From the NCBI GenBank assembly GCA_016788295.1, contig JAEUSY010000041.1, positions 124,001 through 188,000 of the forward strand: 64,000 nucleotides of DNA. The letters run 5' to 3'. Made by a program: the position numbers and the translations under genes. This DNA is from Flavobacteriales bacterium (GTDB lineage Bacteria > Bacteroidota > Bacteroidia > Flavobacteriales_F > PHOS-HE28). The notes beneath the pieces are model-generated. The model was given only the letters and a program-made list of their open reading frames with translations. It made no database searches and was not told the DNA's origin. Positions 2,812 to 16,086 of the stretch are shown in pieces; the first letter of the stretch is position 1; the number at the start of each line of letters is the position of its first letter.

Positions 2812-2889
2812 TCGTCTAACTGACCATGGTCATGTTCGCACCCTCGTTGATGCCGGAAATTCGTTGCGAACCACAACGCACATCCTACC

Positions 2890-3291
2890 ATGACCATTGC
2901 CACCAAGGACCGCACCACCAAGCACCTCTCGGACCTCCATTTCGAACACAACGTGTGGCTCAATACCCTGCAATTCTGCAAGGAGGAGATCACCATCTTC
3001 GAACGTCGCATGGAAGAACTGGTGGCCCGCAATACGGACAAAACACTGCTGGCCGAGCTTGAGCACTTCCAGAACCAGTACATCCGCGAACGCGAAGTGA
3101 TCGATGAACTGCGCCACGGCATCAAGGAACACGAGAACTTCCTGGAAAAGGAAATGAAGGAACATCCCGTGGCCATTGAGCACCGCGCCTTCGGCGACCA
3201 TACCGAACTGCGCGACCGCATGGTGACCTTCGAGAAACTGTACCGCGAACTGAAGGACGAGTTTCACCGCTGGTTGTCGAAGGTGATGTGA
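2890..3291 (+). CDS. Small cytosolic coiled-coil protein, function unknown
   Basis: 133 residues with no signal peptide or membrane segment. The composition is rich in Glu, Lys, Arg, His and Leu. Heptad-like runs between about residues 20 and 125 (for example EEITIFERRMEELV and VIDELRHGIKEHENFLEKE) predict an all-helical, probably coiled-coil or three-helix-bundle protein. I do not recognise the family. It stands alone between two strong terminators, which supports its being a real independently transcribed gene. Confidence 0.8.
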   Translation: MTIATKDRTTKHLSDLHFEHNVWLNTLQFCKEEITIFERRMEELVARNTDKTLLAELEHFQNQYIREREVIDELRHGIKEHENFLEKEMKEHPVAIEHRAFGDHTELRDRMVTFEKLYRELKDEFHRWLSKVM

Positions 3292-3343: not shown

Positions 3344-3350
3344 GCATTCA

Positions 3351-3415
3351 TGACCTGTGTCATCCGAAATGACGACAAAGGTCATGGACACCGGTCCGCG
3401 TTGGGAATAGGTTCG
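3351..3415 (+). promoter_or_regulatory. Predicted promoter with two Crp/Fnr-type dyads
   Basis: Box A at 3351-3362 is TGAC-CTGT-GTCA, the xTGA-N6-TCAx arrangement bound by Crp/Fnr-family dimers. Box B at 3370-3384 has arms TGAC and GTCA with a longer spacer. A -7-like TAGGTTCG lies at 3408-3415. If transcription starts near 3419, the boxes centre at about -62 and -42, the classical class I and class II activator distances. No -33 TTTG is evident, which fits activator dependence. No convincing long gene follows for 430 bases. Confidence 0.4.
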
Positions 3416-3763
3416 CAGCATCCGCCGAGGCAGGGCGTTGCCCTGAGCAGTGAACTGTCCTGAGCAGAGCGGCCCAATTGAACAATACACCCCACGACAT
3501 CAGCAACAGGAACAGTTACCCCTGTCATCGCGAACACGAAGCGCATGAAACCGGCACAATACCTGGTGTTCATAGAAACGGATCTGGACAGTTACGATCA
3601 TGTTCAAACCATCATTCGTTCCAGGGCCGGAAGGGGACTGATCGATCGCGTCTCAGTGGCGCTCGACCATTGTGCCGCTGCAAGGCAAATAGTGCCAACG
3701 CTGGCAACTACTGCTCCAAGTGGATCGTTCAACCCAGCGGTGCGAAAAACCGATATGACCTAC
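3416..3763 (+). other. Gene-poor interval; possible small RNA or short ORF
   Basis: Between the terminator at 3343 and the cupin gene at 3849 there is no ORF of recognisable family. A 73-codon ORF (3545-3766, beginning MKPAQYLVFIETDLDS) is the best coding candidate, but I cannot support it by homology. The first part holds short dyads (GGGC-GTT-GCCC near 3436-3446) and a degenerate direct repeat of CTGAGCAG (about 3442-3470). Since a promoter with Crp/Fnr-type boxes seems to point into it, a regulatory RNA or small protein is possible. Confidence 0.3.
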
Positions 3764-3806
3764 TGACAAATGTCAGTCTTTCATTCTCAAATGGCGCATA
3801 CGTTCG
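3764..3806 (+). promoter_or_regulatory. Crp/Fnr-type box plus -7 element upstream of the cupin gene
   Basis: The dyad CTGACA-AA-TGTCAG (3763-3776) contains TGAC-N4-GTCA, the same spacing as the boxes at 3351 and 22151. A -7-like TACGTTCG lies at 3799-3806. With a start near 3810, the box centres at about -41, the class II position for a Crp/Fnr activator. No -33 element is visible. Confidence 0.45.
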
Positions 3807-3848: not shown

Positions 3849-4367
3849 ATGAGCAGGACCCCGGGACCGATAACGACCATCGAAGAACTGGTCAACGAGC
3901 TCTGCAAAGGGCCCGGCAGAAAGGGGTATTTGGAGATCCTGGACCGCATTGCCATTCCCGTGGAGGACTTCACCCCTTATTGCCGCTGGCACGACAAACA
4001 CTACACACGCAATTGTATCACACGCACATCGGACTTTGAACTGTTGGTGATCTGCTATGAACCAGGCCAACGCACGAGCATTCACGACTACTCCACCGAA
4101 GAGGCTTGGGTGCATCCCTTGGCGGGTGCAGTTGTTGAAGAGCGCTTCGAGTTCATGCCTGGTCAACCGTTGAAGCAGGTCTCTTCAGCTAAAATGGACC
4201 CAGGGTCATTCTCTTACCTGCATAATGGTCGGGGGATACACCGGTACATCAATTCGGGCCAGTCGCGGGCCATCACCTTGAACCTCTACGCGAAGCCGCT
4301 GATCAAATGGAAAGTGTACGACGAAGGCTCCGGTGAAACACAGGAACGGTTCCCACCCGCGAACTGA
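3849..4367 (+). CDS. Cysteine-dioxygenase-like cupin with an altered metal site
   Basis: 172 residues. It matches the cysteine dioxygenase (CDO) cupin family: substrate Arg in YTRN (R54), first metal motif SIHDY (H79), third ligand GIHRY (H131) and late strand ITLNLYAKP. CDO oxidises cysteine to cysteine sulfinate at a 3-His Fe(II) centre. Here the usual H-D-H pair reads H79-D-Y81, so one His ligand is a Tyr, and the cross-linking Cys position is Ala. It may be a different thiol dioxygenase, a two-His site, or a sensor without catalysis. It precedes the PAS kinase by 36 bases and carries a Crp/Fnr-type box upstream. Fold firm, activity uncertain. Confidence 0.8.
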   Translation: MSRTPGPITTIEELVNELCKGPGRKGYLEILDRIAIPVEDFTPYCRWHDKHYTRNCITRTSDFELLVICYEPGQRTSIHDYSTEEAWVHPLAGAVVEERFEFMPGQPLKQVSSAKMDPGSFSYLHNGRGIHRYINSGQSRAITLNLYAKPLIKWKVYDEGSGETQERFPPAN

Positions 4368-4391
4368 CAAGGGCCTTTCCCCTTCTCAACT

Positions 4392-4399
4392 TATTTTCG
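4392..4399 (+). promoter_or_regulatory. Predicted -7 element directly before the PAS kinase
   Basis: TATTTTCG fits TAnnTTCG and ends four bases before the GTG start at 4404, which would give a nearly leaderless transcript. Confidence 0.35.
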
Positions 4400-4403
4400 G
4401 ACC

Positions 4404-5621
4404 GTGACAGGCTCCATTTTTAATGCAGGACAGGTCGCGGAGATCGCGGCCATGCTCTTCAGTTCTGCTGCTGAAGGGCTGGTAGTAGTGGACGGTAATG
4501 GCGTGATCTGCCTGTTGAATCCGAGAATGACGGAACTGTTCGGATACAGTGGCAACGACCTGCTTGGCAAGCCGATCGAAGCATTGGTCCCCAGTGCCAA
4601 GCGCGGCCATCATACACACCTGCGCGAAGGCTACATCCGAACACCCCACAAGCGGCCGATGGGCATGGGGTTGGACCTGATGGGCGAGCGAAAGGATGGA
4701 AGCACCTTTCCGGTTGAAGTGAGCCTTAACCATTTCGTGATCGGCAAAGATCGCTACGTGATGGGGCTGGTGACCGACGTGACCCAACGGCGGGAGGCTG
4801 AACTTCAATTACAGCGCACGAATGACGAGTTGGAGGACCGCGTTGAACAACGCACAGCGGAACTGAAGGAAGCCGAAAAGAGCGTTCGCGAAGCCTTGGA
4901 AGCGGAGAAGGAGTTGAACGCCCTGAAATCGAGGTTCGTGAGCATGGCTTCGCATGAGTTCCGGACGCCTTTAAGTACCATCATGAGCTCGGTGGACCTC
5001 ATTGCGCGTTACAGTGAAGGACCACAGCACGAGAAGATCGAACGTCACGTGGCCAAGATCCGAAGCAAAGTGCGAGAGCTTACGGCCATGCTGAACGACT
5101 TCCTTTCGCTGGACAAGCTGGAACAAGGCATGGTGCGTTGCAATCCCTGCGAAGTGGACGTGGTACACCTGTGCATTGAACTGGTGGAAGAATTGCGCAG
5201 CCTGACCAAACCCGGACAGGAGGTGGATTACGACCACTTTGGCGATGAACGTACCCTGTTCCAGGACCAACAGATGTTGAACCACGTACTGAGCAATCTG
5301 ATCCAGAACGCCATCAAGTACACGCCCGAGGGAAAGCGTATACACCTGTCAACAACCCTGACCAACGGTATGCTGGAGATCCGTATCGTGGATGAGGGCA
5401 TCGGCATACCGTTGGAGGACCAGCAACATTTGTTCGAGCGCTTCTTCCGCGCCAGCAATGCCTTTACCGTTCAGGGCACCGGACTGGGTCTGAACATCGT
5501 GCGTAAGTACCTGGACCTCATGGGCGGTACGATCGGATTCACCAGCGAACCCGGAAAAGGCAGCACCTTTACGGCCACCTTGCCCCAACACCACCACCAT
5601 GAAGACCATCCTGCTCATTGA
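4404..5621 (+). CDS. Soluble PAS-domain sensor histidine kinase (FixL-like architecture)
   Basis: 405 residues with a GTG start; no membrane helix, so cytosolic. Order: PAS domain (about 12-130), coiled-coil linker (131-175), HisKA with H184 in SMASHEFRTPL, then HATPase with N box (NLIQNAIKYTP), G1 (DEGIGIP) and G2 (GTGLGLNIV). The PAS segment RGHHTHLREGY followed by GERKDGSTFPVEVSL parallels the FixL haem PAS, and H70 aligns with the FixL proximal haem His. However, the FixL Arg that contacts oxygen aligns with Leu here, and many PAS domains share this pattern without haem. Its stop overlaps the next gene by 23 bases, so it is translationally coupled to the REC-Crp regulator, its likely partner. 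Confidence 0.9.
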   Translation: MTGSIFNAGQVAEIAAMLFSSAAEGLVVVDGNGVICLLNPRMTELFGYSGNDLLGKPIEALVPSAKRGHHTHLREGYIRTPHKRPMGMGLDLMGERKDGSTFPVEVSLNHFVIGKDRYVMGLVTDVTQRREAELQLQRTNDELEDRVEQRTAELKEAEKSVREALEAEKELNALKSRFVSMASHEFRTPLSTIMSSVDLIARYSEGPQHEKIERHVAKIRSKVRELTAMLNDFLSLDKLEQGMVRCNPCEVDVVHLCIELVEELRSLTKPGQEVDYDHFGDERTLFQDQQMLNHVLSNLIQNAIKYTPEGKRIHLSTTLTNGMLEIRIVDEGIGIPLEDQQHLFERFFRASNAFTVQGTGLGLNIVRKYLDLMGGTIGFTSEPGKGSTFTATLPQHHHHEDHPAH

Positions 5622-6660
5622 GGATGACAAGGACATGCGGGAGAACACCGCAGAGATCCTTGAACTGGCCAACTACAAGGTCTTCAAGGCCGAGAACGGC
5701 AAGAAAGGCGTGGAATTGGCGCGAAAGAACATGCCTGACCTTGTGCTCTGCGACATCATGATGCCCGAGCTGGACGGCTACGGTGTACTGCACATGCTCG
5801 GAAAGGACCCGGCCACAGCTGAACTCCCGTTCATCTTTCTATCGGCTAAAGCCGAACGCCGTGATGTCCGGAAAGGCATGGAACTTGGGGCGGATGACTA
5901 CCTGACCAAACCGTTCGAGGAGAGCGAACTGCTGAACGCGATCGAAGGCCGTTTGAAACGCAGCGACCTGTTCCGTAAGGGCTTCGACCCGAATGCTGAG
6001 GGCCTGAACGGGCTGCTGGAAAATGCGAGAGGCGTAGGGGCTCTAAAGGAGATGACCATCAACCGCAAGACGCGGTCCATCCCAAAAAAGGAGATGATCT
6101 TCCATGAAGGAGATGAACTTCGGTCGGTATTCTTCGTGCAGCAGGGCAAGGTGCGCACGTTCAAGATGAACAACGACGGTAAGGAACTGGTCACCGGCCT
6201 TTACAGCCAAGGTGACTTCCTGGGCTACATGAGCGTGCTTGAAGGGGGACGCGTGGCCGAAAGCGCGGAAGCCTTGGAAGCGACCGAAGTGGCGTTGATC
6301 CCCCGTGAGGAATTGCTGGCCCTATTGTACCGTGACCGAGATGTGAGCATCCGGTTCATCAAGATGCTGAGCAAAGAGGTGCGAGAGAATGAAGAGCGAC
6401 TGCTACAGCTCGCATATGCCCCGGTCCGTCAACGCGTGGCCCAGGCCTTGGTGCGCCTACACAAGCGCTATGGCGGTGAAACCGACCGCGACCTTGGCGT
6501 TCGCATCAGTCGTGAGGACCTGGCCACCTTGGTGGGCACCGCAACGGAATCACTAATCCGTACCCTTACCGACCTGAAAGAGGACAAGTTGATCGAGGTC
6601 CAAGGCAGGGATATCCGCATCAGTGATATGAATGGACTTGAGCGTCTGGCAAATGCTTGA
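5599..6660 (+). CDS. Response regulator fused to a Crp/Fnr DNA-binding module
   Basis: 353 residues. Residues 1-125 form a receiver: acidic E8/D9/D10, phospho-acceptor D52 in LCDIMMPELDG, S82 and K104 in LTKPF. Residues about 150-265 form a cyclic-nucleotide-binding-type beta roll, and about 285-345 a Crp-type winged helix (ISREDLATLVGTATESLIRTL). The recognition helix keeps the Glu and Arg that Fnr uses (E-x3-R) but not the first Crp Arg. There is no N-terminal Cys cluster, so no Fnr-type 4Fe-4S site. It would let the upstream PAS kinase control a Crp/Fnr regulon by phosphorylation, merging the FixJ and FixK roles in one protein. ATG chosen because it starts the first receiver strand. Confidence 0.92.
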   Translation: MKTILLIEDDKDMRENTAEILELANYKVFKAENGKKGVELARKNMPDLVLCDIMMPELDGYGVLHMLGKDPATAELPFIFLSAKAERRDVRKGMELGADDYLTKPFEESELLNAIEGRLKRSDLFRKGFDPNAEGLNGLLENARGVGALKEMTINRKTRSIPKKEMIFHEGDELRSVFFVQQGKVRTFKMNNDGKELVTGLYSQGDFLGYMSVLEGGRVAESAEALEATEVALIPREELLALLYRDRDVSIRFIKMLSKEVRENEERLLQLAYAPVRQRVAQALVRLHKRYGGETDRDLGVRISREDLATLVGTATESLIRTLTDLKEDKLIEVQGRDIRISDMNGLERLANA

Positions 6661-6700
6661 TGTTCATTGCAGGTGCATCTCACATGGCCCGTTAACTTCG
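6657..6700 (+). promoter_or_regulatory. Predicted promoter with a Fnr-like half-site
   Basis: A -7-like TAACTTCG is at 6693-6700. A half-site TTGAT (6657-6661) with a poor second arm (AT then TGC) centres near -41 relative to the predicted start. Weak on its own; noted because of the regulator encoded just upstream. Confidence 0.25.
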
Positions 6701-6720
6701 CATCCGACAGACACCCTCAC

Positions 6721-6936
6721 ATGAAAAAGCTCATCGGTCTCGCCCTTTGGCTCCTCGCCTTCCTGATCCCCTTCCGTTTTGCATTGCTGGATACCAGCGA
6801 ACTTCAAACCCCGGAGGGGGCAGAGAACGTGAAGGGCCTGATCAGCTTCGTGGCCATGCTGGCCCTGCTATTCATCGGCTACGCCTTGGTGGATGGCAGC
6901 AAGGCCGCTGCACACAGCGACGGGCACGGTCACTGA
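6721..6936 (+). CDS. Small two-helix membrane protein, function unknown
   Basis: 71 residues. Helix 1 spans about residues 4-22, a short polar loop contains TPEGAEN, helix 2 spans about 36-54, and a His-rich tail ends SDGHGH. The ATG at 6721 is chosen over an in-frame ATG 54 bases upstream because the latter would place the predicted promoter inside the coding region and adds an unconvincing N-terminus. It lies between the REC-Crp regulator and the UspA gene (30 bases), suggesting the same stress-response unit. The terminal His cluster could bind a metal, but this is speculative. Family not recognised. Confidence 0.75.
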   Translation: MKKLIGLALWLLAFLIPFRFALLDTSELQTPEGAENVKGLISFVAMLALLFIGYALVDGSKAAAHSDGHGH

Positions 6937-6966
6937 GCCGGTCAACGCTCCACATTCCACCCTCTT

Positions 6967-7791
6967 ATGGCCCATATCCTGCTTCCCACCGACTTCAGCG
7001 CCAACGCTATGAACGCAGCGAACTACGCTGTGCAACTCTTTGGCGTGGAGGGCAACACGTTCACGGTACTGAACAGCTACATGCTGCCCCACGGAGCGGC
7101 AAGCTCGATGTGGAGCATTGATGGACTGCTGGCCAAGGAAGCCCAGGAAGGAACGGATGATTTCGTAGCTCGGTTGAGATCCTCGCTTCCAAGCATGAAG
7201 ATCGATCTTCGGACCGCTGTGGAGCATGGTGACCTGCCCAATGTGGTGGCTCGTTTCAGCCATGATGCCGACAAACCACAGCTGGTGGTGATGGGCACTC
7301 AAGGCGCTTCCGGCCTGAAGGAAGTGCTGCTCGGAAGCAATACCGCCGACGTGATCAAAGGAGGTGGTTTTCCGGTGCTCACTGTTCCAGAGAATACGAA
7401 ATACGAAACCCCCAAGCGCATCGTGGTCGCCGATGATGGCGGTCCCATTGACAAGGGTTCGCTGCAGATACTGATCGACATTGCACGCTGGTCAAAGGCC
7501 GAGGTCCTCATCGTGCGTGTGATCAATGAGGACACGACCGTTGAGCCCGGCGCTCCGGATGCACGGTTCGATGAGCTCTTGGGTGCCATTCCCCGTTCGC
7601 ACCACTACGTAAGTGGCGAGAACGTAATGCAGGCGCTCAACGGCTTCGCCGACCAGAGCGACGCGAACATGGTGGTGGTACTTCACCGCAAGCGCAGCAT
7701 CTTCGAACAGCTGTTCCATACCAGCACTGCCACCAAACTGGCCATGCACACCCACATCCCCATGTTGGTGCTGCAACAACAGGCCGACTGA
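6967..7791 (+). CDS. Tandem universal stress protein (UspA family)
   Basis: 274 residues, two Usp domains in one chain (about 1-142 and 148-272). The first starts MAHILLPTDFS and carries an ATP-type loop VMGTQGASGLKEVLLGSNT followed by GFPVLTVP, the nucleotide-binding form. The second is more diverged (VVLHRKRSIFEQLFHTSTATKLA, then IPMLVLQQ). Usp proteins are often induced by oxygen limitation and growth arrest, and Fnr-type regulators commonly control them. The stop overlaps the start of the M50 gene by one base (TGATG), so the two are translationally coupled. Confidence 0.93.
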   Translation: MAHILLPTDFSANAMNAANYAVQLFGVEGNTFTVLNSYMLPHGAASSMWSIDGLLAKEAQEGTDDFVARLRSSLPSMKIDLRTAVEHGDLPNVVARFSHDADKPQLVVMGTQGASGLKEVLLGSNTADVIKGGGFPVLTVPENTKYETPKRIVVADDGGPIDKGSLQILIDIARWSKAEVLIVRVINEDTTVEPGAPDARFDELLGAIPRSHHYVSGENVMQALNGFADQSDANMVVVLHRKRSIFEQLFHTSTATKLAMHTHIPMLVLQQQAD

Positions 7792-8900
7792 TGGCCTCCC
7801 CCACACTGCGCGGGGGCCTGTCCCTCTTCTCCTTCCGGGGTATCAAGGTGTTGGTGCATTGGTCCTTTCTTCTCCTACCCGCTTGGATCGTTATTTCGGG
7901 CTTGTCTGACGGTGTGCCGTTCACTCAACTACTGGCGCATGTCGGGCTCGTCCTTGTGGTCTTCGTCTGCGTGGTGGTGCATGAGTTCGGGCACGCGCTC
8001 ACAGCTCAGCGTTATGGCATTCGCACGCGCGACATCACCCTTTTGCCCATTGGAGGTGTGGCCAGCTTGGAACGCATGCCCGAGGACCCGAAGCAGGAAT
8101 TCTGGATCACTATTGCCGGCCCGCTCATGAACCTCTTGATCGCGGCATTGGCCTTCCTGATCGTCGCTATCACCGGGGTATCGCTCTTCTTCTCGGACCT
8201 GCTATTGGGCGCCACCACTTGGACGAACGTTTTATCGTTCGTGATCATGGCCAATATCCTTTTGTTCCTTTTCAATCTGCTTCCGGCCTTCCCCATGGAT
8301 GGTGGGCGTATCCTGCGTTCGTTGTTGAGCATGCGTTTGCCCCGTGAACGTGCAACGGACATCGCGGCCATTGTCGGGCGGATGTTCGCGGTTGGTTTCG
8401 TGATCGCAGGAATTTCATGGGGCCAGCCCTTCATGGCCCTCGTAGGCGTGTTCGTGTTCTTTGCCGCTGGCTCCGAAGCGCGCAGCGTTCGGCAGAAGGC
8501 CCGGTTGGAAGGCATAACCGTAGGCCAGGTGATGCGGACACGCTACTGGTCGCTCCAACGGACCGCTACAGTGCAACAGGCGGTGAATGAATTGCTTGCT
8601 GGCGGGGATAGCGTCTTGCTCGTGCTTGACGGCCAGCAGTTGGCAGGGCTGCTTGTTCGAGAGGACCTGATGAGCGCCTTACAGAACGGCCGCGACCAAG
8701 ACCCACTTAGTGACCTTCCCTTTCGCGCAGTGTCGGTCGTGGCGCCGAAGGAAGGAGCCCACAAAGCCTTCCAGCGCATGGTGATCGAAGGTCATCCCGT
8801 TCTGCCCGTACTTTCCGAAGGCCGGATCGTGGGCATCATGGAACCCGAGAACCTGGCGGAATATCTGCAAGTGCAGCAGGCCGCCGGCCGGAAAGGCTGA
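7791..8900 (+). CDS. Site-2-type intramembrane zinc metalloprotease (M50) with CBS pair
   Basis: 369 residues. Multiple membrane helices carry the M50 zinc site: H64-E-x-x-H68 in VVHEFGHAL and the second motif LLPAFPMDGGR with D170. A soluble C-terminus (about 245-365) carries two CBS repeats that usually sense adenosine nucleotides. Such proteins cleave transmembrane substrates within the lipid bilayer; the substrate is unknown. It is coupled to the upstream UspA gene, and the pairing of a nucleotide-binding Usp with a CBS-gated protease suggests an energy-state response. It ends 6 bases from the convergent DUF5777 gene. Confidence 0.92.
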   Translation: MASPTLRGGLSLFSFRGIKVLVHWSFLLLPAWIVISGLSDGVPFTQLLAHVGLVLVVFVCVVVHEFGHALTAQRYGIRTRDITLLPIGGVASLERMPEDPKQEFWITIAGPLMNLLIAALAFLIVAITGVSLFFSDLLLGATTWTNVLSFVIMANILLFLFNLLPAFPMDGGRILRSLLSMRLPRERATDIAAIVGRMFAVGFVIAGISWGQPFMALVGVFVFFAAGSEARSVRQKARLEGITVGQVMRTRYWSLQRTATVQQAVNELLAGGDSVLLVLDGQQLAGLLVREDLMSALQNGRDQDPLSDLPFRAVSVVAPKEGAHKAFQRMVIEGHPVLPVLSEGRIVGIMEPENLAEYLQVQQAAGRKG

Positions 8901-10959: not shown

Positions 10960-11328
10960 TCAATTGTTAAGGGCACCAGCGTTGATCCAGGCCTGGAGCT
11001 GTTGAATGTTACAGTTCGGCATCTTGCCGGAAGGGGGCATGAAGCTGGGTGTGCCCTGTATCGCCCTGGCCTGCACCCTTCCAAGGTCCACTTGCGCCTT
11101 GAAGGCACTATAGGTGGAAAGGTCCGGCGATTGCCCACCGACCACATGGCAACCCGGAGTGGCGCAGCGTGATTGCACCAAGGGTTGAATGGTACCGCTC
11201 CAGGTCACGTTGGTCACATCGCAGAAGCTATTGGGGTAGAGCACCTCCTCCTTGTCGTAATAGCAGCCTACAAGCCCCAAGGCCAGCATCATCAGTATCG
11301 TGGAACGCATCTTCATCCTCTGTTCCAT
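10960..11328 (-). CDS. Single-domain cytochrome-c-like lipoprotein with a CX4CH motif
   Basis: About 122 residues. A lipoprotein signal ends LGLVGC, predicting lipidation in the envelope. The mature part has one haem-type motif C-ATPG-CH (four residues between the cysteines rather than two) and a distal Met region FMPPSGKMP, followed by LQAWINAGA as in c-type cytochrome domains of exported Bacteroidota and Planctomycete proteins. The ATG at 11328 overlaps the stop of the upstream cytochrome gene (TGATG); an in-frame ATG at 11316 is an alternative. Likely an electron carrier, or a stabilised loop if no haem is attached. Confidence 0.78.
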   Translation of the reverse strand: MEQRMKMRSTILMMLALGLVGCYYDKEEVLYPNSFCDVTNVTWSGTIQPLVQSRCATPGCHVVGGQSPDLSTYSAFKAQVDLGRVQARAIQGTPSFMPPSGKMPNCNIQQLQAWINAGALNN

Positions 11329-12047
11329 CAGTTGTTGGGTGCTCCGGCATCGATCCAGATCATGAAGGTGCGCACCTCGCAGGTGGGCATGATCGGGCTG
11401 CTCGGGGGCATCGGAATACCCGTCGGATCGTGGGTCACCGAACGACCCAATCGACCATCCGCGGCCACCGCGTTCACCGCAGACCATGTGCTGAGGTTGA
11501 TGCCACCTTGCGGCGAACCACCACTGTGGCAACCCAGGCAACGCTGTTGAATGAGCGGCACGATGGAACCGGAATAGGTGACGTTAAGTGTATCACAGAC
11601 AGAGGAAGCACAGCTGTTGTTTTGCGCGCCCTGTTGGATCCATGTGTTGATCAGCGCGATCTGCGAAGCGGTCAGCGGCGCTTGGGGAGGCGGAGGCATC
11701 AGATCGTTGGGGTTGCTCTCCGTGATCGCTTCCATCAGGTCACCGTTCTGCACGATGCCACTGTTCATCAGCGAATTGTAGTTCGTGATCTGGATCCAAT
11801 CGTTGTCGTCCGTGGCCGTGTTATGGCAACCAGGAACGGCGCAATTGCTGATGAGGATCGGCAGCACCTGTTGCTGGAAATACACCGTGTTCGGGTCGCA
11901 GTTCGTACCACCACCCCCACCACCATTGCCCCCACCGGGGTCCACGGGGCCAACAATGGGCTCGTGCTGGCAAGCTGCCAGCCCAAAGGTGAGCGAGAGG
12001 GATATCGCGCCACCAGTGATCAGGCTCTGAAAGGAGATCGTTCGCAT
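11328..12047 (-). CDS. Di-domain cytochrome-c-like lipoprotein (CX4CH plus CX2CH)
   Basis: 239 residues. A lipoprotein signal ends FGLAAC. A Gly-rich linker (about 37-46) leads to two cytochrome c domains. Domain 1 has C-AVPG-CH and the Met-containing MPPPPQAPLTASQ; domain 2 has the canonical C-LG-CH and MPPSSPIMPTCE. Each ends with an INTWIQQGA/MIWIDAGA helix. The two domains therefore differ in haem-motif spacing. It probably carries electrons at the outer face of the inner membrane or on the outer membrane. It is coupled by overlap to the single-domain homologue downstream, which suggests tandem duplication. The ccm genes at 30-33 kb could supply haem attachment. Confidence 0.82.
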   Translation of the reverse strand: MRTISFQSLITGGAISLSLTFGLAACQHEPIVGPVDPGGGNGGGGGGTNCDPNTVYFQQQVLPILISNCAVPGCHNTATDDNDWIQITNYNSLMNSGIVQNGDLMEAITESNPNDLMPPPPQAPLTASQIALINTWIQQGAQNNSCASSVCDTLNVTYSGSIVPLIQQRCLGCHSGGSPQGGINLSTWSAVNAVAADGRLGRSVTHDPTGIPMPPSSPIMPTCEVRTFMIWIDAGAPNN

Positions 12048-12511: not shown

Positions 12512-13261
12512 TCAACGGCCAGCGAGCCAGCGCTTGAATTCCGCGGATCGTTCGCTGCTTACGATGGCATCGTCCTCGTAAGGCGGGTCCAACACCACTT
12601 TCACCCGGCTTTTACTGTAGGCGAGCAGCTCTCGAATGCTGTGCAGGTTCACGATCAATTGGCGGTTGAGGCGGATGAACATCCCCGGATCGAGCTGCTT
12701 CTCCAGCTTGTCCAGGCTCTCCTCCAAGGGAAGGTCACGGCCCTCCCGCGTTCGCAGGAAGGTGTTCTTCATTAGGGAATGGATGTACGCGATCTGGTCG
12801 GGCTCCACCACCTTGAAATGTTCGCCATAACGAATGAGGAAGCGGCGCACTGGGGCCGAAGGGCGATCGGCATCCGCACGCGCGAGGGCCGAATGATCGC
12901 GCACCACCATACCCTTGCGCGCGCGTTCCAAGGCCTGTTGCAGGTCCTCGCGGCGTATCGGTTTCAGCAAATAATCAAGTGCGTTCACGCGGAAGGCCCG
13001 TAACGCATGCTCATCGTAGGCGGTGATGAACACCACCGGAAAATCAACCTGGGCACGTTCGAATATGGCGAAGCTCTCCCCATCCTCCAGTTGCACATCC
13101 ATCAACGCCAGGTCAGGGGCCTCGTTCCCCTTGATCCATTCCACGGCACCAGCGATGGAAGGCACATCGGCCAACACATCCACATCGGGCGCCAGTTCCG
13201 CAAGTAGCTTGCGCAGCCGCTTCACTGCGGCCTGCTCGTCCTCAATGATCAGTATTCTCAT
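12512..13261 (-). CDS. LytTR-family response regulator
   Basis: 249 residues. Receiver domain at 1-120 with acidic E7/D8, acceptor D55 in LALMDVQLEDG and Lys in DYLLKPIRRED. A LytTR DNA-binding domain lies at about 145-245 (FLIRYGEHFKVVEPDQIAYI, then RLNRQLIVNLHSIREL). LytTR regulators usually bind paired direct repeats near promoters. The start overlaps the stop of the upstream kinase gene by four bases, so the two form a cognate pair. Likely targets are the flanking YceI and cytochrome genes on the same strand. Confidence 0.95.
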   Translation of the reverse strand: MRILIIEDEQAAVKRLRKLLAELAPDVDVLADVPSIAGAVEWIKGNEAPDLALMDVQLEDGESFAIFERAQVDFPVVFITAYDEHALRAFRVNALDYLLKPIRREDLQQALERARKGMVVRDHSALARADADRPSAPVRRFLIRYGEHFKVVEPDQIAYIHSLMKNTFLRTREGRDLPLEESLDKLEKQLDPGMFIRLNRQLIVNLHSIRELLAYSKSRVKVVLDPPYEDDAIVSSERSAEFKRWLAGR

Positions 13262-16086
13262 GCGTTCGGATCGATCAAAGGTATACGCACAGTGAACCGA
13301 CCATTGGCCTTATCGATCACGATCGGCCGGTCGGTCAGGGCCTGGTAGCGCCGTTGGATGCTGTGCAATCCGAATCCGGTGGAACGTGGCGCCGTGGTGC
13401 GCGGCCGGACCACGTTTCCTACCTCAAGTGCATCCTCGGAGGAACGGACCACCACGACCACGGGATGTTCCGCGCTCACCACGTTATGCTTAAGCGCGTT
13501 CTCCACCAGGAGCTGGAGGGTCATGGGCACGATGTACCGATGCATGGCGGCATCATCCACATCAACTTGGAGCGCTATGGCACTACCGAACCGCTGCTGC
13601 TCCAGTTCGAAGTAGGAGCGCATAAGGCGAAGGTCCTCGGCCACCGTGATCAATTCCTTGTCGCGCAGTTGAAGCAGGCTGCGGAACAGGTCGCTGAGCT
13701 GTTCCACATGAATTACGGCCTTGGAAGGTTCGGATTCGATGAGGTCCACCAGCGTGTTGAAACTGTTGAACATGAAATGCGGATCCACCTGGCTTCGCAA
13801 TGCTTCCAGCTGAAAGCGCACTTTCTCCTGCTCGTGCAGCGCCTTCACGCGGGCACGTTGTTCGCGCATGCGTACCACCACGAACGCACCGCCTACCACC
13901 AGTACGACCCATGCCACCATGGCCCAACTGGTTCGCCACCAGGGCTGAAGGACCACCAGTTCGAACTGCACCCATCCCTCATCGGGGACATCGTCGCCAA
14001 CGAACGCGATCAACCGGAACCGGTAGTTCCCTGGGGGCAGCGCCGAATAGGTGATCTCCCGATCGCGAGTGACCAAGGGATGCTCGTCCAAGCCTACCAG
14101 TTGATAGGCGAACCTTAATTCGGAAGGGTCGGCATAGTGGATGCCGGTGAAGCTCACCACAAGGTCATTGCGGTCGTGCGGAGTGGTGATGTGTTGGTCC
14201 GCTGCGCGTGTCTCGCTACCCACACGAACACCAGTGATCACGGCGGGGACCCTACGCAGGTAGTGGCGTTCCTGGGGTTGTATGCGGTAGAGCCCCTTGT
14301 TGCAAGCGAACCAGAGGTCCCCATCAACGCCGGTGCATACGCTGTTCAGCTCAGCGCGCGCACCTTCCAATCCGAAGCGGCGTGTGACATCCACCCAGAC
14401 ATTGGTTGCTGGCTCATAGGCCATGGTCCCCCGGCCACCGAAAGCCAACAGATGTGTGCCGGACAAGCCCAACGCAAAGAGATCCCCGGAGAACGGAGCA
14501 AGCCCCTGCCCTACACATAACACGCTATCCGAAGCGGAGCGGCAAAGCCCTGTGCCTGGTCCCGCCGCCCAGATACTTCCTTTAGCATCGCTGACCAACG
14601 AGAAGTACGTGTGTGGGCCGCTGGCCGCACCGTGCATGGTACCGGTGGCATTGCCATACAGGAGCCCGGCACCATCGCTTACCGCCCAAATGCCGCCTTT
14701 TCTGTCGGGCAGAATGTCGTAGATGAACTCGCTTCCCGGTCCTCTTTGTGGATGGAAGCGATCGGCCCAGTAGCCGACCACGCCACCCAGCGTGCCGAAC
14801 CACAAGGTGTCGCCCGCACTGCGCACGGACAGTACGTTCTCGTTGATCAACCCATCCTTACCCGTGAAATGGCGAATTCGCCCTTCACGGTCCAGCGCAT
14901 AAACGCCATCGCCGAACGTGGCGGCCCAAACGGTGCCTTGAGCATCGGCTGCGAGCGAGACAACGGGTGCGCGGCGATCATCGCCAATTCGAACGTGATG
15001 GAACACATGCGTATCGGTCAGTGTATTCGAGTGTCGGAAAAGCCCGCGTTCGGTGGCGAACCAGATGTTGCCCTGATCATCGCTGCAAAGCGCCTTGATG
15101 CCGCGCAGGTCGGTATTCTCATGCTCTGGGATGAACAACACCGTCGGATCCGATCGATACAACAGTTCCTGTCCCGTGCACCACCATGCTACTCCATCCG
15201 CATCGAGCATAAGGTCCTTCACCGGCAACAATGCAGGGTCCATCGGTGATCGATACGAATAGTGCCCTTGACGTACGCCGAGATCGAACATGCATAGACC
15301 GCGGTCCCTGGTCCCGATCCACACAAGGTCATCGCGCACTGCAAGCTGAATGACCGGGCCGTATCCACTGGAATGGGCCAATGGTGTTGGAGCCGCCGGA
15401 CCGGGCGTCCAACTGAACACACCGCCGCGATCGGTACCCGCCCAGACCAAGCCGTCGTTGTCTGCCGCGAGACTGAGCACCAGATTGTCCGGTGCGCCGT
15501 TGGACTCATCACACCGGGCTTGCACCCCCTTTGCTGTGCACAGCACCAGACCTTGGTCCGTTGCGGCCACCACCCCATCGCCCCATGCAACCAGGTCGTT
15601 CACGTGGTCATCGGGCATGCCACTGGCCAGGTCGAACCGGGCCAGCTCACCCCCCTTCGCTCGCCAGAGCCCTGCACCGTGCGTGCCCAACCAAAGGCTC
15701 CCGTCCTGGGCTGGTCGCATGACGTTAACGCGGTGTTCGGCAAGGCTTGGATCCACGTATAGCGTATCGCAACCAAGTGTATTGCAGCGCATGATCACCC
15801 CATTGGACCACGCAGCAACGATCGCCTCTTCCATACGGACCAATGCGGTGACCTGCGTGGTGCTTGAGCGCGAGGCACGCTCGGTACGCTCGCCATCGGT
15901 CCAGAAAAGCCCCTTGTCCGTGCCAGCCCAGATCAACCCATGCTCATCCTGCGCCATACAGGTCACCTCGGGGCGCTGTTGCCCGAACCGCAGTTCCAGC
16001 GCACGCGTGAGCGGGAACTGAGCCCATGCCGGAACATGGGCGAGAAAGACCAACAAGAACAACAGAACGTTGAGTCTCACGATCAA
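13258..16086 (-). CDS. Two-component-propeller sensor histidine kinase (LytS type)
   Basis: 942 residues. Signal peptide (about 1-22, ending AWAQ), then two seven-bladed propellers built of Reg_prop-like repeats (for example GLIWAGTDKGLF, GSLWLGTHGAGLW, GTVWAATFGDGVY), a Y_Y_Y beta-sandwich domain (about 640-715), one membrane helix (WWRTSWAMVAWVVLVV), and a cytosolic His_kinase domain with the H-box LRSQVDPHFMFNSFN (His near 768) and a degenerate ATPase. It senses an envelope ligand that cannot be read from sequence. It is coupled by 4-base overlaps both to the YceI gene upstream and the LytTR regulator downstream, tying YceI to the sensor. Confidence 0.95.
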   Translation of the reverse strand: MIVRLNVLLFLLVFLAHVPAWAQFPLTRALELRFGQQRPEVTCMAQDEHGLIWAGTDKGLFWTDGERTERASRSSTTQVTALVRMEEAIVAAWSNGVIMRCNTLGCDTLYVDPSLAEHRVNVMRPAQDGSLWLGTHGAGLWRAKGGELARFDLASGMPDDHVNDLVAWGDGVVAATDQGLVLCTAKGVQARCDESNGAPDNLVLSLAADNDGLVWAGTDRGGVFSWTPGPAAPTPLAHSSGYGPVIQLAVRDDLVWIGTRDRGLCMFDLGVRQGHYSYRSPMDPALLPVKDLMLDADGVAWWCTGQELLYRSDPTVLFIPEHENTDLRGIKALCSDDQGNIWFATERGLFRHSNTLTDTHVFHHVRIGDDRRAPVVSLAADAQGTVWAATFGDGVYALDREGRIRHFTGKDGLINENVLSVRSAGDTLWFGTLGGVVGYWADRFHPQRGPGSEFIYDILPDRKGGIWAVSDGAGLLYGNATGTMHGAASGPHTYFSLVSDAKGSIWAAGPGTGLCRSASDSVLCVGQGLAPFSGDLFALGLSGTHLLAFGGRGTMAYEPATNVWVDVTRRFGLEGARAELNSVCTGVDGDLWFACNKGLYRIQPQERHYLRRVPAVITGVRVGSETRAADQHITTPHDRNDLVVSFTGIHYADPSELRFAYQLVGLDEHPLVTRDREITYSALPPGNYRFRLIAFVGDDVPDEGWVQFELVVLQPWWRTSWAMVAWVVLVVGGAFVVVRMREQRARVKALHEQEKVRFQLEALRSQVDPHFMFNSFNTLVDLIESEPSKAVIHVEQLSDLFRSLLQLRDKELITVAEDLRLMRSYFELEQQRFGSAIALQVDVDDAAMHRYIVPMTLQLLVENALKHNVVSAEHPVVVVVRSSEDALEVGNVVRPRTTAPRSTGFGLHSIQRRYQALTDRPIVIDKANGRFTVRIPLIDPNA

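Follow-up and report, generated by a model that had tools for sequence, protein, structure and literature searches.

A haem-type PAS kinase and a REC-Crp/Fnr regulator as a probable low-oxygen two-component switch in Bacteroidota

Results

Gene layout of the kinase–regulator locus

The 64 kb stretch of DNA analysed here, hereafter the window, contains a same-strand run of six genes (3849–8900) encoding a cysteine-dioxygenase (CDO)-like protein, a histidine kinase, a response regulator, a 70-aa protein, a UspA, and an M50/CBS protein (Table 1). Since the gaps in this run are short or the genes overlap, it is probably one operon. An initial reading of the DNA without database searches (the sequence-only reading) had named UspA, cupin, and M50/CBS genes as neighbours of the kinase and the regulator. 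UspA and M50/CBS were recovered under these names, and the cupin turned out to be the CDO-like protein, which lacks one metal-ligand His. When it was aligned with 11 relatives, 11 of 12 rows had Tyr or Phe (IHDY or IHDF) where the second His of the metal-binding H-x-H pair would stand, and only L016 keeps the His. The protein may be a cupin of non-standard type or without catalytic activity that is expressed together with the kinase.

The kinase and regulator ORFs share 23 nt, as the sequence-only reading had stated. The identical overlap was seen in many relatives, and 4-nt overlaps are also common. The overlap is a mechanical effect and no signal, because the kinase stop codon TGA falls within the ATT-GAG codons of the conserved N-terminus "ILLIED" of the regulator.

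Elsewhere in the window, a separate two-component pair, consisting of a LytTR-like response regulator and a propeller-type sensor kinase, is encoded on the reverse strand (12512–16086). The same strand also encodes two small proteins (10960–12047) whose CxxCH-like motifs mark them as possible cytochromes c.

Table 1 Genes, boxes, and promoter element at the locus (positions in the window).
Feature	Position	Strand	Remarks
Box CTGACCATGGTCAT	2820–2833		Upstream of the 133-aa gene
133-aa protein	2890–3291	+	No Pfam/NCBIfam match; in other Bacteroidota, relatives adjoin the kinase–regulator pair and often have a box in front
Box ATGACCTGTGTCAT	3350–3363		In the intergenic gap ahead of the operon; no called gene follows it in the window
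Box CTGACAAATGTCAG	3763–3776		Perfect palindrome; predicted operon operator; ends 72 bp before the ATG of the CDO-like gene
TACGTTCG	3799–3806	+	-7-like promoter element (consensus TAnnTTTG), 29 nt from the centre of box CTGACAAATGTCAG
CDO-like cupin (PF05995)	3849–4367	+	One of three metal-ligand His absent (IHDY, not IHDH)
PAS-HisKA-HATPase_c histidine kinase	4404–5621	+	405 aa; GTG start; soluble; predicted haem PAS
Kinase codon H70	4611–4613	+	
Kinase codon R84	4653–4655	+	
Kinase codon M86	4659–4661	+	
REC-Crp/Fnr response regulator	5599–6660	+	353 aa
Small membrane protein	6723–6936	+	70 aa; found only among close relatives
UspA	6967–7791	+	Tandem universal stress protein
M50 metalloprotease with CBS domain	7791–8900	+	Last gene of the apparent operon

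PAS domain of the kinase

The kinase consists of a PAS domain (residues 19–126), HisKA with the phospho-acceptor H184, and HATPase_c. Its maximum Kyte-Doolittle value over 19 residues was 1.77, which is below membrane strength and bears out the earlier statement that the kinase has no membrane helix. In a comparison of the single PAS domain with the PDB, BjFixL was the closest match (E 5e-18). A profile built from 58 orthologous PAS domains was also run against the PDB: SmFixL, BjFixL, EcDosP, and FG214 scored approximately 70–83 bits, and the best flavin PAS came next at 42 bits. The haem PAS domains were thus the nearest, and H70 aligned with H200 of BjFixL. Both results agree with the sequence-only reading, which had likened the domain to the FixL haem PAS and placed H70 at the position of the haem ligand. 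Among the relatives listed, H70 was kept in 72 of 73 orthologues, and R84 and M86 in all 73.

The AlphaFold model of the PAS domain had a pLDDT of 91, and its best 26 Foldseek rows were all haem PAS. With a second structural aligner, LOV and other PAS domains scored nearly as high as haem PAS (Z 15.8 vs 17.5). Structure alone was hence rejected as a separator of haem and flavin PAS, and the argument for a haem PAS is carried by the sequence evidence. The near-equal scores would suit a domain that binds no haem, whose His would be structural in a common cytosolic PAS subtype and whose kinase would sense another cytosolic signal. We regard this as quite improbable for three reasons: haem PAS domains outscore all others by about 30 bits in the profile search; FG214, whose solved PAS shares the H...RxMG pattern, binds haem; and the one PAS paralogue read in the window genome is without the His.

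The distal Arg220 of FixL, which contacts bound O2, corresponds to Leu90 in the window kinase, at a position occupied by M, L, R, or G across the family. In the family alignment, neither R220 nor R206 of FixL was kept, so the ligand and the sign of the response may differ from those of FixL. FG214 aligned with the kinase PAS as RFREVH-QEH-...-RTMG, with His156 and Met172 as the counterparts of H70 and M86. In FG214, which has been described as redox-responsive, the proximal ligand is His156, and the iron is ligated by Met172 in reduced crystals (PMC13060918). As M86 aligns with Met172, our best guess is a haem with His/Met ligation (H70/M86), whose distal side would be nearer to that of FG214 than to that of FixL.

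The REC-Crp/Fnr regulator

Response_reg, cNMP_binding (74.2 bits, cut-off 27.5), and HTH_Crp_2 (63.0 bits, cut-off 27) were all identified in the regulator. The receiver residues E8, D9, D52, S82, and K104 are conserved, with D9, D52, and K104 invariant, and D52 is the phosphorylation site. A search of the regulator for Fe-S ligand cysteines gave none: the only Cys, C51, sits in the receiver, so the protein has no Fe-S cluster. The earlier description of a receiver (D52) joined to a Crp/Fnr domain without a cluster therefore holds. The recognition helix GTATESLIRTL is also the commonest in the family, and its residues E317 and R321 are invariant. AlphaFold gave the domain arrangement of the regulator without confidence (pTM 0.45), with pLDDT below 50 in the linker 127–146.

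FNR-like proteins encoded beside ccoI in other Bacteroidia have the helix GTATESxIRxL or close variants together with N-terminal cysteines. In the window genome, seven cNMP-binding matches were obtained; among those read, none had the FNR cysteines, and the GTATES helix occurred only in the regulator. Another Crp protein of this genome, L003, has a similar helix and adjoins nitrous-oxide-reductase genes.

Distribution of the pair

At least 80 relatives of the regulator, complete or almost so, were obtained in the genome scan (48–86% identity). Among the relatives listed, mostly from Bacteroidota, the kinase gene lay directly upstream of the regulator gene in 79 of 80. A search across Bacteroidota, proposed in the sequence-only reading, found the fused architecture to be widespread, and this genome is no special case. 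Of 247 genomes sampled evenly across the phylum, 38 carried the fused regulator, all of them from the class of the window (this count excludes G017, matched to the Crp domain only). A few relatives came from outside Bacteroidota, from Bdellovibrionota and a bin labelled Deltaproteobacteria. They formed a single supported clade within the Bacteroidota sequences, a pattern that suggests transfer. A relative labelled Azovibrio fell within Chitinophagaceae, perhaps through a binning error. On viral contigs, no relative was confirmed.

Box and promoter geometry

In a motif-free dyad scan of intergenic DNA, TGAC-N4-GTCA and TGAT-N4-ATCA ranked first. Of 74 loci, 38 had the box MTGAYNNNNRTCAK (CTGAC-N4-GTCAG type) between -300 and +60 relative to the operon start, compared with 0.33 in dinucleotide shuffles. 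Because whole-genome box counts were close to the expectation from base composition (63 sites), only positioned or intergenic boxes were considered. The sequence TAnnTTTG is the known -7 element of Bacteroidetes promoters. Downstream of the box centre, it stood 29 nt away in 34 cases and 51 nt away in 22, compared with 0.44 cases per other offset. The 29-nt spacing fits class II Crp/FNR activation, which would place the box near -41.5, and the second spacing fits tandem promoters in which another site lies 22 bp farther upstream. This geometry was seen at cbb3 operons as well as at the operon of the pair. The same arrangement is seen in the window, where CTGACAAATGTCAG is followed at exactly 29 nt by TACGTTCG and then by the operon. 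Upstream of this operon, a stretch of about 960 bp contains three boxes, whereas approximately one would be expected in the whole 64 kb.

Boxes were also observed elsewhere. UspA genes near the pair carry one in several other loci, and several Bdellovibrionota loci carry one near the pair or UspA. A small family of 120–145 aa without a Pfam match is found beside the pair in many Bacteroidota, often with its own box (window 2890–3291; L038 7212–7646; L036 7084–7515). In genome G000, boxes precede genes for a tryptophan 2,3-dioxygenase (C55:214086; L207), a PaaA/PaaC-family phenylacetate protein (C31:40016; L212), and a rhodanese/metallo-beta-lactamase protein (C28:33117; L199); these oxygen-using or sulfur-related enzymes are possible further targets. 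A nitrous oxide reductase region of G000 (C38:134000–150000; L095) contains an Rrf2-like regulator and a second Crp/Fnr-type protein, with a box in the divergent intergenic gap.

Linkage to cbb3 oxidase genes

Clustering of neighbouring genes showed that approximately 20 of the 80 loci listed have cbb3 oxidase genes next to the pair, and Pfam searches of the checked loci confirmed FixS, COX1 with FixO, FixP, FixG, and FixH. Locus L024 joins both contexts: its cbb3 genes are followed by the gene order of the window. The regulator gene lay at most 25 kb from ccoN in 13 of 33 sampled genomes with both genes, compared with 0.42 expected. The window genome has its cbb3 cluster on a different contig, with a box before ccoS. 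Hsp20 and bacterial globin genes were also identified by Pfam near the pair in other Bacteroidota (L035 3510–4070; L086 3331–3747). The presence of the regulator did not track that of cbb3, which occurred in 33 of 38 genomes with the regulator and about 18 of 24 without it; profiles of its presence and absence against cbb3 or cytochrome bd were uninformative and were set aside.

The box preceded ccoNO in 22 of 33 genomes with the regulator, compared with 0.23 in shuffles. It also preceded cbb3 genes in 14 of 18 Bacteroidia genomes without the regulator, which ruled out a box specific to the REC-Crp regulator. The box is common to FNR-like proteins with the same recognition helix, and because such proteins occur in those genomes, its presence is no proof of binding by the regulator. 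Both observations would be expected if the box belonged to another Crp/Fnr protein, either a cysteine-bearing FNR or an NO-type protein such as L003, with the operon of the pair as one target and different sites for REC-Crp. We give this explanation a distinctly small chance. The regulator has the same helix with invariant E317 and R321, and the Crp-type proteins read in the window genome lack the FNR-type cysteines and, apart from the regulator, the GTATES helix. Moreover, the proximity of regulator and ccoN was seen in 13 of 21 genomes without an FNR-like gene at ccoI and in 0 of 12 with one, although the lineages are not independent, and the pair retains the box after its apparent transfer to Bdellovibrionota.

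The sequence-only reading had judged the neighbouring genes to suit an oxygen or redox regulon. Linkage to cbb3 genes and the boxes of cbb3 operons support a role in oxygen respiration; that oxygen is the signal, we infer. The kinase could instead use its haem to sense something other than oxygen, be it nitric oxide, carbon monoxide, the redox state of the haem, or the supply of haem, the remaining pathway being unchanged. The replacement of the O2-contacting Arg220 by Leu90, the match of the invariant M86 to a Met ligand of the redox-responsive FG214, and the box at a nitrous-oxide-reductase region of the window genome would be in keeping with this. We nevertheless consider another cue unlikely, since the conserved partners of the pair are oxygen-respiration genes, above all the cbb3 oxidase and its maturation factors, and since Met ligation is compatible with O2 sensing: Met can be the distal haem ligand of DosP, which senses O2 through its Met-ligated haem.

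Proposed low-oxygen pathway

Here, we propose a two-component low-oxygen switch of Bacteroidota in which the haem kinase acts through the REC-Crp regulator on its own operon and on cbb3, a reading that we favour on balance. The cytosolic PAS domain would hold a haem with H70 as the proximal and M86 as the likely sixth ligand. A drop in oxygen would alter the haem and increase autophosphorylation at H184, the sign being assumed as in FixL, and the phosphate would then pass to D52 of the adjacently encoded regulator. Phosphorylation of the receiver would let the attached Crp domain bind CTGAC-N4-GTCAG boxes centred near -41.5. The bound regulator would activate its own operon, the cbb3 oxidase genes, and probably several oxygen-related genes.

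The wider proposition is that Bacteroidota independently evolved a FixLJ-FixK-like oxygen switch, composed of a His/Met haem kinase and a phosphorylation-gated Crp protein reading the box of FNR, and that this switch replaced Fe-S sensing at the cbb3 regulon in whole lineages. It is plausible, and our confidence falls just short of accepting it. If true, the FixLJ-FixK logic arose separately and in a shorter form. The control of cbb3 in Bacteroidota outside the well-studied gut genera appears undescribed in the literature searched, and the pair provides, for many environmental species, a regulator, an operator sequence, and a promoter geometry that can be tested. It would also be an example of a Crp/Fnr DNA-binding domain controlled by phosphorylation, not by a cluster or a cyclic nucleotide.

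Comparison with known systems

The sequence-only reading had called the pair a compressed FixL-FixJ-FixK cascade. The haem-type PAS, the linkage to cbb3, and the Crp/Fnr-type operator support the likeness, but membership of the FixL, FixJ, and FixK families was not borne out. The kinase scored 106.7 bits with the FixL model (NCBIfam NF041777 equivalog, cut-off 850), and the regulator, which is also receiver-fused, scored 79.2 bits with the FixK model (NCBIfam NF050806, cut-off 300). FixJ has a NarL/LuxR-type HTH output, whereas the output of the regulator is cNMP_binding with HTH_Crp_2. These scores and the Crp output ruled out the pair as a fused FixL/FixJ/FixK. The kinase shares with FixL the proximal His, by alignment, and lacks its distal Arg; its PAS profile is closest to solved haem PAS domains. 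The regulator belongs to the Crp/Fnr superfamily by the Pfam cut-offs, carries the response regulator residue set, and lacks the N-terminal cluster cysteines of FNR.

Like the rhizobial FixL-FixJ-FixK cascade, the system combines a haem-type PAS kinase, a receiver, a Crp/Fnr-type activator, and a cbb3 (fixNOQP) target; it differs in having receiver and Crp in one protein, no FixK step, and another phylum as host. A related rhizobial cascade is hFixL-FxkR-FixK, and the anaerobox-controlled genes of R. leguminosarum are targets of both FixK and FnrN (PMC7888657). This sharing parallels what REC-Crp and FNR-like proteins seem to do in Bacteroidota. The Bacteroidota FNR-like Crp proteins have the helix GTATESxIRxL, and the class of box found with them at cbb3 genes is the same. 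In FNR, O2 is sensed by an Fe-S cluster bound to N-terminal cysteines, in place of which the window regulator has a receiver as input.

FG214 of Fimbriimonas (PDB 10jx, PMC13060918) shares the PAS pattern H..H...RxMG. It is a one-component, single-chain HTH-PAS protein with no phosphorelay, and its distal His175 is not conserved in the kinase family. E. coli DosP (EcDos) was the second group in the PAS profile search, with its proximal His aligned, but it is a cyclic-di-GMP phosphodiesterase whose Met95 aligns with the variable position 88 and not with the invariant M86. NmpRSTU of Myxococcus xanthus is a haem-based kinase system controlling cbb3 oxidase (PMC11841059) and differs in its globin-coupled kinase, phosphorelay, and NtrC-type regulator. 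In the literature searched, outside which several classic surveys lie, neither a REC-Crp regulator of this kind nor such a system in Bacteroidota was described. The pair is apparently an undescribed, separately built counterpart of FixL-FixJ-FixK.
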